Shown here: positions 1,543-55,463 of the stretch, piece by piece | How the letters are laid out: each line of letters starts with the position of its first letter | Numbering within the stretch: the stretch's first letter is position 1 | Assembly (NCBI RefSeq): GCF_020567425.1 | Contig: NZ_JAJCVJ010000001.1 | Span: 1,302,001-1,366,000 of the forward strand | Origin: Salinirubrum litoreum | GTDB taxonomy: Archaea > Halobacteriota > Halobacteria > Halobacteriales > Haloferacaceae | DNA length: 64,000 nucleotides | Direction of reading: 5' to 3' | The notes under the pieces: generated by a model | Seen by the model: only the letters and a program-made list of their open reading frames with translations | Databases searched by the model: none | What the model was told of the DNA's origin: nothing | Translations under genes and position numbers: made by a program

Positions 1543-1618
1543 CGACGGTTGCAGGGAGGCGCTCGCGCTGATCCGACTGGTCCACCGGGAGTTGCGTGAT
1601 GGGTCGCAGATTCCACCG

Positions 1619-1658
1619 GGTGGGACTGAAAGGGGCCGAGAGCGCGGGGGCTTTCACC
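1619..1658 (+). repeat. Short form of the GGTGGGACTGAAAGGGGC element
   Basis: The constant 5' end GGTGGGACTGAAAGGGGC and constant 3' end GGGGGCTTTCACC are joined by only a few bases here (CGAGAGCGC). The 138-145-base forms at loci B, C and D carry long paired arms between the same ends. GAAAG can still pair with CTTTC, giving a minimal hairpin. It may be a deletion derivative of the full element. Confidence 0.75.
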
Positions 1659-15518: not shown

Positions 15519-15656
15519 GGTGAAAGCCCCCGCGCTCTCGACCGGCCGCGACTTCCTGCGCGCTTCCCTCAGGCTGGCGGGCAAGCCCGCCAGCCTTCAG
15601 TCCAGTGCTTGGTGCGTCGGGGCCGGATCGAGAGCGCGGCCCCTTTCAGTCCCACC
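15519..15656 (-). ncRNA. Candidate structured RNA element, copy B
   Basis: This 138-base element read on the minus strand opens with GGTGGGACTGAAAGGGGC and closes with GGGGGCTTTCACC, which pair through GAAAG/CTTTC. Inside, an outer arm CGCGCTCTCGA pairs with TCGAGAGCGCG. A second helix CCGGCC/GGCCGG and then CGAC/GTCG follow, and a constant internal loop (AAGCACTGGACTGA opposite GAGGGAAGCGCGCA) leads to an 11-bp apical helix (AGGCTGGCGGG/CCCGCCAGCCT) with a CTTG loop. Copies C and D keep the loops but have different helix sequences with pairing preserved. Expression is not shown by sequence alone. Confidence 0.6.
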
Positions 15657-15782
15657 CGACTGTGCGACTCATCATGTCGTCACTGGTCGTCACCCGGTGA
15701 GTCGTCTGCGAGTCTGAAACCGCCGGTCGCAGTAGTCCCCAACCCACCCCGACTGCTGGCGACTCGGACTGCGAATCGGTCT

Positions 15783-15897
15783 TCGCTGTCGCTCAGACAC
15801 GATTCGGTTCCGGTCGCCACCAGCTCGCGTCCAGTGCGGGTTCCAGAATCGGCCGGAGCGGGTGACGAGCCGGCCGTCTGTCGGTGGTATAAAAACG
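15783..15897 (-). repeat. Linker conserved between loci B and C with TATA-like box
   Basis: On the minus strand the segment begins with TTTTTATACC (15895-15886), then CGACAGACGGC and CTCGTCACCCGCTCCGGCCG, and continues with ACCGAATCGTGTCTGAGCGA. The same string of blocks occurs at 31236-31350 in locus C. The TATA-like box would start a transcript near 15863 reading towards the structured element at 15656-15519. Conservation of a promoter-like box in two copies supports transcription of the element; this is inference. Confidence 0.6.
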
Positions 15898-15956
15898 TTC
15901 GAGAGTGCTTACAAATAGAGAGTTGCGTGCGATTCGGTTCAGAGTCCGGCGTGCGC

Positions 15957-16023
15957 GACCCCGACGCGCGCGAGGGAGGCGGGCGCTCTCGTGCGCCCGC
16001 CGAGGCTGGGGAGGACCGAGGTG
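15957..16023 (-). repeat. Two-hairpin unit of composite locus B
   Basis: On the minus strand this is the CTCCCCAGCCTCG unit. Its hairpin is GCGGGCGC (16000-15993) with GCGCCCGC (15986-15979) and a six-base loop, followed by CTCCCTCGCGCGCG. The stem sequence is unrelated to those at loci A, C, E and F, yet fully complementary. Confidence 0.65.
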
Positions 16024-31103: not shown

Positions 31104-31183
31104 GCACCTCGTCCTCCCCAGCCTCGACCGCCTCTCCGCACCGCCCGGCGGTCTCCCTCGCGCGCGTCGGGGTCGCGCGCGCC
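31104..31183 (+). repeat. Two-hairpin unit of composite locus C
   Basis: After CTCCCCAGCCTC, GACCGCC (31126-31132) pairs with GGCGGTC (31147-31153) around the constant TCTCCGCACCGCCC-type loop. A second stem CGCGCGCG/CGCGCGCG with loop TCGGGGT follows. Stem one differs from every other copy while pairing is kept. Confidence 0.65.
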
Positions 31184-31235
31184 GAGTTCTGAGTCGAGTC
31201 GCACGCTACAGACCGTTTATAAGCGATTTCGAATA

Positions 31236-31350
31236 TTTTTATACCCCCGACAGACGGCAGGCTCGTCACCCGCTCCGGCCGATTCTGGAATCCGGTCCGG
31301 ACGCGATCTGCTGGCAACCGGAGCCGAATCGTGTCTGAGCGACAGCGAGG
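31236..31350 (+). repeat. Linker conserved with locus B, with TATA-like box
   Basis: TTTTTATACC (31236-31245) is followed by CGACAGACGGC, CTCGTCACCCGCTCCGGCCG and ACCGGAGCCGAATCGTGTCT. The same blocks occur in the same order on the minus strand at 15897-15783. The box would place a transcription start near 31270, reading into the structured element at 31475. Confidence 0.6.
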
Positions 31351-31474
31351 ACCTCATCGCAGTTCGGTCGCTCAGCAGTCGGGGAGGTTCGGGGACGACT
31401 GCGACGACCGGATTCCGAACCTGCGACGACCGACCGGGTGACCACCAGTAACTGCGTGATGGGACGCCGATTCG

Positions 31475-31612
31475 GGTGGGACTGAAAGGGGCCGGCCGCT
31501 CGAACCCCCTCCGACGACGAAAGCACTGGACTGAGGGCGACCGGGCTTGCCCGGTCGCCCGAGGGAAGCGCGCATCGAGTCGCAGGGGGTCGAGCGGCCG
31601 GGGGCTTTCACC
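31475..31612 (+). ncRNA. Candidate structured RNA element, copy C
   Basis: The same plan as copy B. GGTGGGACTGAAAGGGGC and GGGGGCTTTCACC close the outer helix, and GGCCGCTCGA pairs with TCGAGCGGCC. CCCCCT faces AGGGGG and CGAC faces GTCG. The internal loop AAGCACTGGACTGA / GAGGGAAGCGCGCA is invariant. The apical helix GGGCGACCGGG/CCCGGTCGCCC (31535-31560) has 11 pairs and a CTTG loop. None of the paired arms matches the B or D sequence, yet all are complementary. Confidence 0.6.
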
Positions 31613-31735
31613 GCTCGTCGTCTACAACTCGCTTACCAAAGGTCACCTCTCACTGGGAGTTTCACCTCTCGTCGTCTACGACAGACTCGTCAGGATCCAC
31701 ATCTCAGACCGAGACAACCACACCCACCACACCGT

Positions 31736-37092: not shown

Positions 37093-37200
37093 ACTTCGGC
37101 GGCGTGGGGCCGCCTCAGGTACGCCGACGGTCGCAGGGAGGCACGACGCTGAAACCGACTGGGCCACCGGGTGTTGCACGAGCTTTCGCCGATTCCACCG

Positions 37201-37345
37201 GGTGGGACTGAAAGGGGCCGACCTCTCGGTCTACCCCCGACGACGTAAGCACTGGACTGAACGAGAGCGCGGAGGGAAGCGACGCGCTCTCGTGAGGGAA
37301 GCGCGCAACGAGTCGCGGGTAGCCGAGAGGTCGGGGGCTTTCACC
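37201..37345 (+). ncRNA. Candidate structured RNA element, copy D
   Basis: The ends and internal loop are the same as copies B and C. ACCTCTCGG pairs with CCGAGAGGT, CTACCC with GGGTAG, and CGAC with GTCG. The constant AAGCACTGGACTGA faces GAGGGAAGCGCGCA. The apical helix ACGAGAGCGCG/CGCGCTCTCGT (37261-37293) again has exactly 11 pairs. Its loop is longer (GAGGGAAGCGA) and resembles the constant GAGGGAAGCG strand, as if that motif were duplicated. Confidence 0.6.
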
Positions 37346-43589: not shown

Positions 43590-43850
43590 ACATCTGTCCG
43601 AGGCGACTACAGACCGCAATCGTAGCCCGCGACCCGAAGGAGTGTCTACCCGAGACGACCACAGACCGCAATCGTAGCCCGCGACAACACCCACAACCGC
43701 TACGAGCGCTAACGCACCCCCAGCGGAACCGCAACCGCAACCGCACCTCGGTCCTCCCCAGCCTCGGCGAACGCTCTCCGCACCGCCCGCGTTCGCCTCC
43801 CTCGCGTGCGCGTCGGGGTCGCGCACGCGCCGACCGCATCCTCCGCAGAC
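43590..43850 (+). repeat. Composite intergenic repeat, locus E (5' part only)
   Basis: Only the opening array and the two-hairpin unit (43744-43834) are present in this 420-base gap; the structured element is absent. The array contains an exact 25-bp direct repeat (43609-43633 and 43661-43685, period 52). The 3' end of DUF373 follows at once (43898), so the locus may be truncated there. Confidence 0.75.
43744..43834 (+). repeat. Two-hairpin unit of composite locus E
   Basis: GGCGAACG (43766-43773) pairs with CGTTCGCC (43790-43797). The second hairpin is GCGTGCGCG (43804-43812) with CGCGCACGC (43820-43828) around loop TCGGGGT. Relative to locus C, the second helix has a matched change on both sides, which is direct evidence that pairing matters. 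Confidence 0.68.
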
Positions 43851-55162: not shown

Positions 55163-55291
55163 CGAGCGAGACCGGAGGTCTCGCCAGCAGTCGGCGCGGC
55201 GCGCCGACGACAGAGCGAGAGCGAAACTCTCGCCAGCAACCGGCGTGGAGCACCGGTGACGAAGGCTCCTCAGAGCGTACCGCTGACAGTG
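55163..55291 (-). repeat. Inverted copy of the locus D hairpin array
   Basis: Read on the minus strand this matches much of 36725-36985. It has GTCAGC...GCTCTGA, GAGCCTTCGTCACCGG, GCCGGTTGCTGGCGAGAG, CTCTGTCGTCGGCGCG and GACTGCTGGCGAGACCTCCG in the same order. Several helix changes are matched on both sides. Its orientation is opposite to the surrounding composite repeat, supporting independent mobility of this module. Confidence 0.7.
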
Positions 55292-55463
55292 GTCGAGACG
55301 CCGGGGGCTTTCACCCCTCGTCTTCCGCAACCGATCCGACCGAGGTGTCTGCAACTGATCCCACCAAGTTCACGTCACCAACCGAGTCCACCGAGTCCTC
55401 CACGACAGCGTACCCAACCCTCTCACACTCATCTCCACCGGACTCAGCCGACCACCAGCCCCG

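Follow-up and report, generated by a model that had tools for sequence, protein, structure and literature searches.

The element and its copies in the window

The window, i.e., the whole stretch of 64,000 nucleotides analysed here, contains three full copies of a short non-coding element, a collapsed one, and a remnant consisting of a 3' half. A preliminary description of this DNA had placed the full copies at 15519-15656 (minus strand), 31475-31612, and 37201-37345, and a covariance model (R1), for which 53 copies were taken exclusively from genomes other than that of the window, matched all three as located. The collapsed copy that had been described at 1619-1658 and the 3' fragment near 55300 are real as well. 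The stretch 55213-55312 gives a weak R1 match (E 0.96); its letters identify it as a branched copy of larger size that has been reduced to its 3' half. As for the extent of the element, the proposed 138-bp unit exists, but it is only the core of a larger non-coding composite. The features are the following:

~1507-1617, + strand: class II upstream part of the collapsed core
1618..1658, + strand: collapsed core, internal hairpin lost and both ends kept (R1 match 1618-1655, E 8e-7)
15519..15657, - strand: core copy 1 (R1 match 15522-15657, E 2.8e-15)
~15658-16020, - strand: class I upstream part of core copy 1
31108..31473, + strand: class I upstream composite of core copy 2, start approximate
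31114: second repeat, opposite strand, in the upstream part of core copy 2, CTCCCCAGCCTCG
31216-31223: TATA-like TTTATAAG in the upstream part of core copy 2; conserved structured sequence continues after it
31474..31612, + strand: core copy 2, the element under study, GGGTGGGACTGAAAGGGG ... GGGCTTTCACC (R1 match 31474-31609, E 1.2e-16)
31474..31491, + strand: invariant motif at the 5' end, containing three G-tracts (GGG T GGG ACTGAAA GGGG; frequencies per position from 234 copies), candidate half of a putative quadruplex
31492..31503, + strand: 5' arm of helix P1, CCGGCCGCTCGA, hypervariable
31505..31510, + strand: 5' arm of helix P2, CCCCCT
31521..31534, + strand: conserved internal-loop strand AAGCACTGGACTGA
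31535..31560, + strand: apical 11-bp hairpin, closed by CTTG
31561..31574, + strand: conserved internal-loop strand GAGGGAAGCGCGCA
31584..31589, + strand: 3' arm of helix P2, AGGGGG
31590..31601, + strand: 3' arm of helix P1, TCGAGCGGCCGG
31602..31609, + strand: fourth G-tract GGG, and CTTTC as the partner strand of GAAAG in helix P0
31613..31700, + strand: downstream composite tail of core copy 2, CTCGTCGTC and related short repeats, end approximate
37200..37345, + strand: core copy 3 (R1 match 37200-37342, E 1.2e-18), preceded by a class II upstream part whose start is not fixed
55170..55315, + strand: 3' half of a branched copy with class I upstream sequence, 5' half missing

The 18-mer GGTGGGACTGAAAGGGGC, at the 5' end of the core, has four exact matches in the window against 0.05 expected, and the 13-mer GGGGGCTTTCACC, at the 3' end, has five, one of them at 55303-55315 in the 3' fragment. 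As had been noticed, the full copies share both ends and an asymmetric internal loop, whose two strands are identical in the three of them. The sequences of the outer, middle, and apical helices vary among these copies, with complementarity preserved. Inspection by eye agreed that the apical stem has 11 bp in all three copies, two of which close it with CTTG.

Short tandem repeats of the type GCGACCGATTCGACCGAGTTCTCT lie 3' of the core, at 31613-31700 in the window and at many other copies of its genome, and their number differs between copies (e.g., L036 and L045). The second repeat, CTCCCCAGCCTC (GGCTGGGGAGG on the opposite strand), has a variable hairpin of its own and is found in the window at 1390, 16002 (minus), 31114, 43754, and 54993. 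It lies alongside the cores or remnants at 1618, 15519, 31475, and 55213, is absent beside 37201, and stands alone at 43754; it also adjoins cores in other genera (L007, L242, and L018). A coding function of the downstream tail was considered and rejected: the reversed repeats end in TGA at the element, and most frames meet a stop after anything from a few codons to a few dozen, so this tail is not a gene family.

The genome of the window has 4.06 Mb in five contigs. Allowing up to two mismatches, the 5' 17-mer has 92 matches in it, whereas the reversed control has one. In length, the copies vary between 31 nt, in a collapsed form, and more than 350 nt, in branched forms, and they are assembled from a common set of loops and junctions. 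Two inner loops alternate, ACTGGACTGA...GAGGGAAGCG and ACCGCAGGGA...GACTGAGGAGCG, which look like one internal loop with its strands exchanged. Both loop types are found with each common P1 variant, and thus parts have been mixed among copies. The copies are intergenic, with no gene inside the element, and the chromosomal ones have no recurrent flanking gene. Upstream of the core, where two classes can be told apart, the similarity among them extends about 350-700 bp; downstream it covers about 100 bp. No similarity was found beyond ~700 bp among the loci compared, and a linked gene was discarded on these grounds.

A covarying fold across Halobacteria

The structure was examined on a plain MAFFT alignment of the 53 copies from other genomes. 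RNAalifold gave 23 pairs, 21 of them with compensatory changes. After adding P0 and one further pair, 90.6% of the helix cells were paired, against 68.7% with the letters of the 3' side shuffled, and the covariation score was 0.528, against 0.159 for shuffled helices and 0.065-0.101 for helices that had been slid. None of 500 shuffles reached any of five covariation measures. We also read P1 gap-free outward from its anchors in 131 unique arm pairs of other genomes, where 92.5% of the positions were Watson-Crick, against 51% when the arms were dealt anew; the observed figure is raised somewhat by a filter, since copies were retained if at least five of the first seven positions paired (234 of 260 overall). 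P1 is complementary without any alignment, and therefore its complementarity is real and not an alignment artefact. The original claim that conserved loops with covarying helices reveal a selected fold held over the 53 copies and against both shuffled and slid controls.

The preliminary description had also proposed a search of haloarchaeal genomes with a covariance model. R1 (E up to 1e-5) found matches in 116 of 145 near-complete Halobacteria genomes, belonging to 46 of 58 genera; at this threshold, 29 of the 145 genomes have no copy. In a sample of 120 genomes of the phylum there were 16 positives, all in the window's own order, and 84 negative genomes that are given without individual listing. 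The copy number among related genomes goes from none to about 90. High G+C may favour any covariance model, but the full-length matches scoring more than 90 bits are not of that kind. The element usually measures 105-125 nt in other genomes, and hosts of the exact 17-mer include Halobaculum, Haloarcula, Haladaptatus, Natrinema, Halorussus, Natronococcus, Halosimplex, and others. One exact 17-mer match lies in a Prevotella record, where the rest of the element is missing.

When the window and seven loci from other genomes were compared with Rfam 15, no match exceeded a gathering cut-off, and the sole sub-threshold match was BjrC80 (18.4 bits against a cut-off of 80). Thus, neither a lack of covariation nor a known Rfam family was found when both were tested, and the element has no counterpart among the Rfam families, in keeping with the preliminary description, which recognized no named family in it. 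Searching open papers with a few terms, including the sequences GTGGGACTGAAAG, CTTTCAGTCCCAC, and CCTCCCCAGCCTCG, we found no relevant article and, to that extent, no previous description of the element. We take GTGGGACTGAAAG to resemble the 3' ends of CRISPR repeats. The Cas6 model PF10040, which may miss haloarchaeal Cas6, matched in 1 of 34 genomes.

Other inner architectures were also observed. Several species (L001, L012, L170, and L172) have a different core, GGTCGGGTCAGCGACCCCTATC..GATATGTCG..AGCGACC, within the same outer ends. Double-hairpin modules (GTCGTTCGA..TCGTGATGACGA..TCGAACCAC) appear at several positions of the core (L031, L013, L126, L160, L166, and L169), mostly in the orientation that insertion of a single DNA module into one or the other palindrome arm would give.

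The mismatch-type cells of P1 comprise 41 G·T and 16 A·C, as expected if the GTGGGACTG strand is the one that folds. This excess is modest, is gone within the genome of the window (5 versus 6), and does not reach significance when every helix in the alignment is counted (47 versus 36); the stems of tRNAs, as a G·U control, amounted to only three tRNAs in the loci. The internal loops contain 611 A and 61 T while the paired columns are balanced, although loop cells are not independent and their composition partly reflects a few inherited motifs. To judge from composition, such A-rich, T-poor loops are the pattern of folded RNA. The nearly complete complementarity, the A-rich loops, and the modest G·T excess in P1 make it likely that the GTGGGACTG strand folds on itself, and this strand seems slightly more probable as RNA than as single-stranded DNA.

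Among other species, the 150 bp before the core showed no common promoter-like AT peak, and a promoter of its own near the core was rejected for this reason. The copies in the genome of the window have no preferred orientation with respect to the flanking genes (22/22/20/12 on our own rough gene call, mixed and close to random), which led us to discard an RNA produced by read-through from upstream genes. The proposed RNA structure was therefore sustained as a covarying, selected fold but not as a molecule acting as RNA. These results bear on a different explanation, namely a functional non-coding RNA of the host that has been multiplied, whose copies would be transcribed and whose folded product would act in trans or protect transcript ends. 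The covarying fold with its A-rich, T-poor loops on one strand, the presence throughout the class, and the TATA-like box of some class I upstream parts agree with such an RNA; the missing AT peak, the random orientation, and the 29 Halobacteria genomes in which R1 found no copy at its threshold do not.

The core starts with GGG(T/C)GGGACTGAAAGGGG, ends with GGGCTTTC, and contains four conserved G-tracts of three or more, GGG(T/C)GGG..GGGG..GGG. Conservation inside the search motif is inflated by the search itself, but two G ahead of it, which the search did not require, are G in 96% and 99% of the copies elsewhere and in 100% of those in the window's genome. The single base that separates the first two tracts is T or C, and C or T predominates at position -3. 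For a quadruplex to stack on a duplex, four three-G tracts around a hairpin would be required, and the invariant tracts could form a quadruplex collar of this kind; a protein site would give invariant bases too. Quadruplexes have been reported in Haloferax volcanii cells, in DNA and in RNA (PMC12873603).

Mobility, pairs and candidate machinery

In genome G029, the element lies directly after a stop codon, in roughly 300 bp that are replaced by about 25-35 bp in the congeners G060-G063, and G002 has a collapsed remnant at the same locus. A second locus, found in a different genus, has no element in G066 and G067; G071 retains a collapsed remnant there, and G031 carries two head-to-head cores. 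No target duplication was readable, because the sister species are too diverged (flanks ~85% identical). Copies are also lost through deletions between their G-rich ends, and thus an empty site may mean either absence or clean loss. The copies are dispersed, multiple, and present or absent at orthologous sites, as those of a mobile repeat are.

Adjacent copies over all loci are head-to-head in 54 of 67 cases, tail-to-tail in 4, and in the same direction in 9, with a few pairs counted twice because some loci overlap. Many head-to-head pairs have short spacers of 20-29 bp, and the outer six bases of compact pairs are palindromic (0.85 versus 0.58 shuffled, 14 pairs). Terminal inverted repeats like those of MITEs are present in head-to-head pairs as complementary outer flanks, while the only such pairing within a single copy is the inner P0. 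The pairs examined have no internal gene. Empty orthologous sites, head-to-head pairs, patchy copy number, and the large composite are features beyond those of the preliminary description.

The second locus retains a copy in five species of a single genus, with an unchanged motif and with P1 arms that read CCACGGCCGTGGAC, CCGCGGCTATGCGG, CTGCCGGCCTCGTG, and near variants. These arms are almost always matched on the opposite side, and the intermediates are one T·G and one C·A. Stem change seems to occur both by stepwise compensation and by replacement of the whole inner part. Such retention at one locus in five species could mean a host function, and it adds to the case for a multiplied host RNA; the 20-29 bp head-to-head spacers leave no obvious space for two promoters and count against it. 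On balance, we regard the host RNA as possible but doubtful.

Regarding the enzymes that could move the element, Y1 transposase was rejected because it has no match in G016 (84 copies) or G059 (36 copies), and TnpB because it is absent in the latter. Reverse transcriptase was also discarded: RVT_1 was found in 1 of 34 genomes, one without R1 copies, and in none of the high-copy genomes tested. Therefore, none of the three tracks the copy number, which speaks against a mobile repeat. A phage origin was rejected too, since there was no match to a phage record and no exact 17-mer in viral contigs. The element is short, palindromic, intergenic, and of high copy number, just as decaying repeats of the REP/BIME type or derived from IS605 (PATE-type) and moved by Y1 transposase or TnpB would be, and IS605-type elements are described as abundant in haloarchaea (PMC3119063). 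But the high-copy genomes without these enzymes, together with several zero-copy genomes with many Y1/TnpB matches, already weaken this origin, and the conserved motif faces inward in the pairs. We consider it very improbable.

In five haloarchaeal plasmids, two of which have the same sequence in this region, a copy (L239, L240, L241, L243, and L244) lies within ~0.4-0.6 kb of the start of a divergent gene annotated as DNA-binding/OB-fold, which is separated from the core by a conserved structured stretch spanning several hundred bp. This arrangement may be an older or autonomous form. In L239-L241, an HNH nuclease gene is found beyond the stretch with the DNA-binding/OB-fold gene. The plasmid copies, with their similar structured spacer, would also suit a DNA site, a cruciform or quadruplex bound by a protein of chromosome, replication, or plasmid maintenance, whose dispersal would be a by-product of recombination. 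The invariant G-tracts, the quadruplexes seen in Haloferax cells (PMC12873603), and the head-to-head dyads are compatible with such a site. Nevertheless, a duplex site needs no complementary arms, the copy number differs from none to about 90 between relatives, and the chromosomal copies in the window's genome have no recurrent gene beside them; a DNA site is therefore unlikely.

Interpretation and comparison with known systems

The element is real, strongly structured, and mobile, and it can be filed among the structured interspersed repeats. We give a probability of about 50% to the proposal that these copies are Halobacteria-wide, non-coding, non-autonomous mobile repeats, whose fold, and not their stem sequence, would be recognized by machinery supplied in trans. 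Its observed basis comprises the dispersed copies, their presence or absence at orthologous sites, the conserved ends and loops, the variable paired stems, and the head-to-head pairing. The G-rich strand would fold on itself into a capped hairpin formed by P0, a G-rich collar that may be a quadruplex, P1, and stacked helices with purine-rich loops. The trans-supplied machinery would read this fold and spread or maintain the element; if the fold is recognized and not the sequence, the stems are free to vary yet obliged to pair. Recombination or gene conversion inside the conserved loops would mix stem variants and inner loops, which fits their free combination. More tentatively, the element could represent a haloarchaeal family of mobile RNA or single-stranded DNA with a quadruplex-duplex junction and interchangeable helices, spread by a machinery that would recognize the fold regardless of sequence.

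Its nearest known counterparts are haloarchaeal repeats that lack a transposase, SMR-A foremost, and the BOX repeats. The SMR-A elements of Haloquadratum walsbyi (HqIRS42/43/55) have ~110 bp, terminal inverted repeats, no transposase, and up to 54 copies; they insert nested into palindromes, their mobilisation is enigmatic, and SMR copies of one type are commonly more than 95% identical (PMC3119063). They resemble the element in host group, size, and the lack of a transposase and, to judge from their description, differ in that its paired stems are hypervariable; no covarying fold is described for SMRs. BOX repeats are modular, with optional inner modules, terminal repeats that pair in the folded RNA, and ~125 copies, and reports of them are almost confined to pneumococcus and S. 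mitis (PMC3049150). The element is likewise an interspersed, modular, structured repeat, but it spans a class, its stems are replaced wholesale, and it forms head-to-head pairs.

With REP/BIME/REPIN repeats and their RAYT transposases it shares intergenic hairpins, inverted pairs, and mosaic composites; in contrast, the Y1 transposase does not track its copy number. REP/BIME pairs have the opposite polarity to the pairs of this element. It is also similar to MITEs in being short and non-coding, with inverted ends and empty sites, but no parental transposon end was identified, no target duplication was readable at the divergence of the sister species, and it has a long covarying internal structure. 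Fungal mitochondrial double-hairpin elements are mobile hairpin modules with variable stems, although from another domain and with another sequence.

The element combines strong covariation, presence in four fifths of the Halobacteria genomes sampled, and up to ~90 copies per genome, yet it is missing from Rfam. Its wholesale stem changes around fixed loops constitute a natural experiment, it is a concrete candidate for a conserved quadruplex in potassium-rich cells, and it offers a handle on the movement of transposase-free haloarchaeal repeats, which is enigmatic according to the Haloquadratum authors (PMC3119063). Compared with the known kinds, it is set apart by its class-wide spread, its variable paired stems, its head-to-head pairs, and its G-tract collar.
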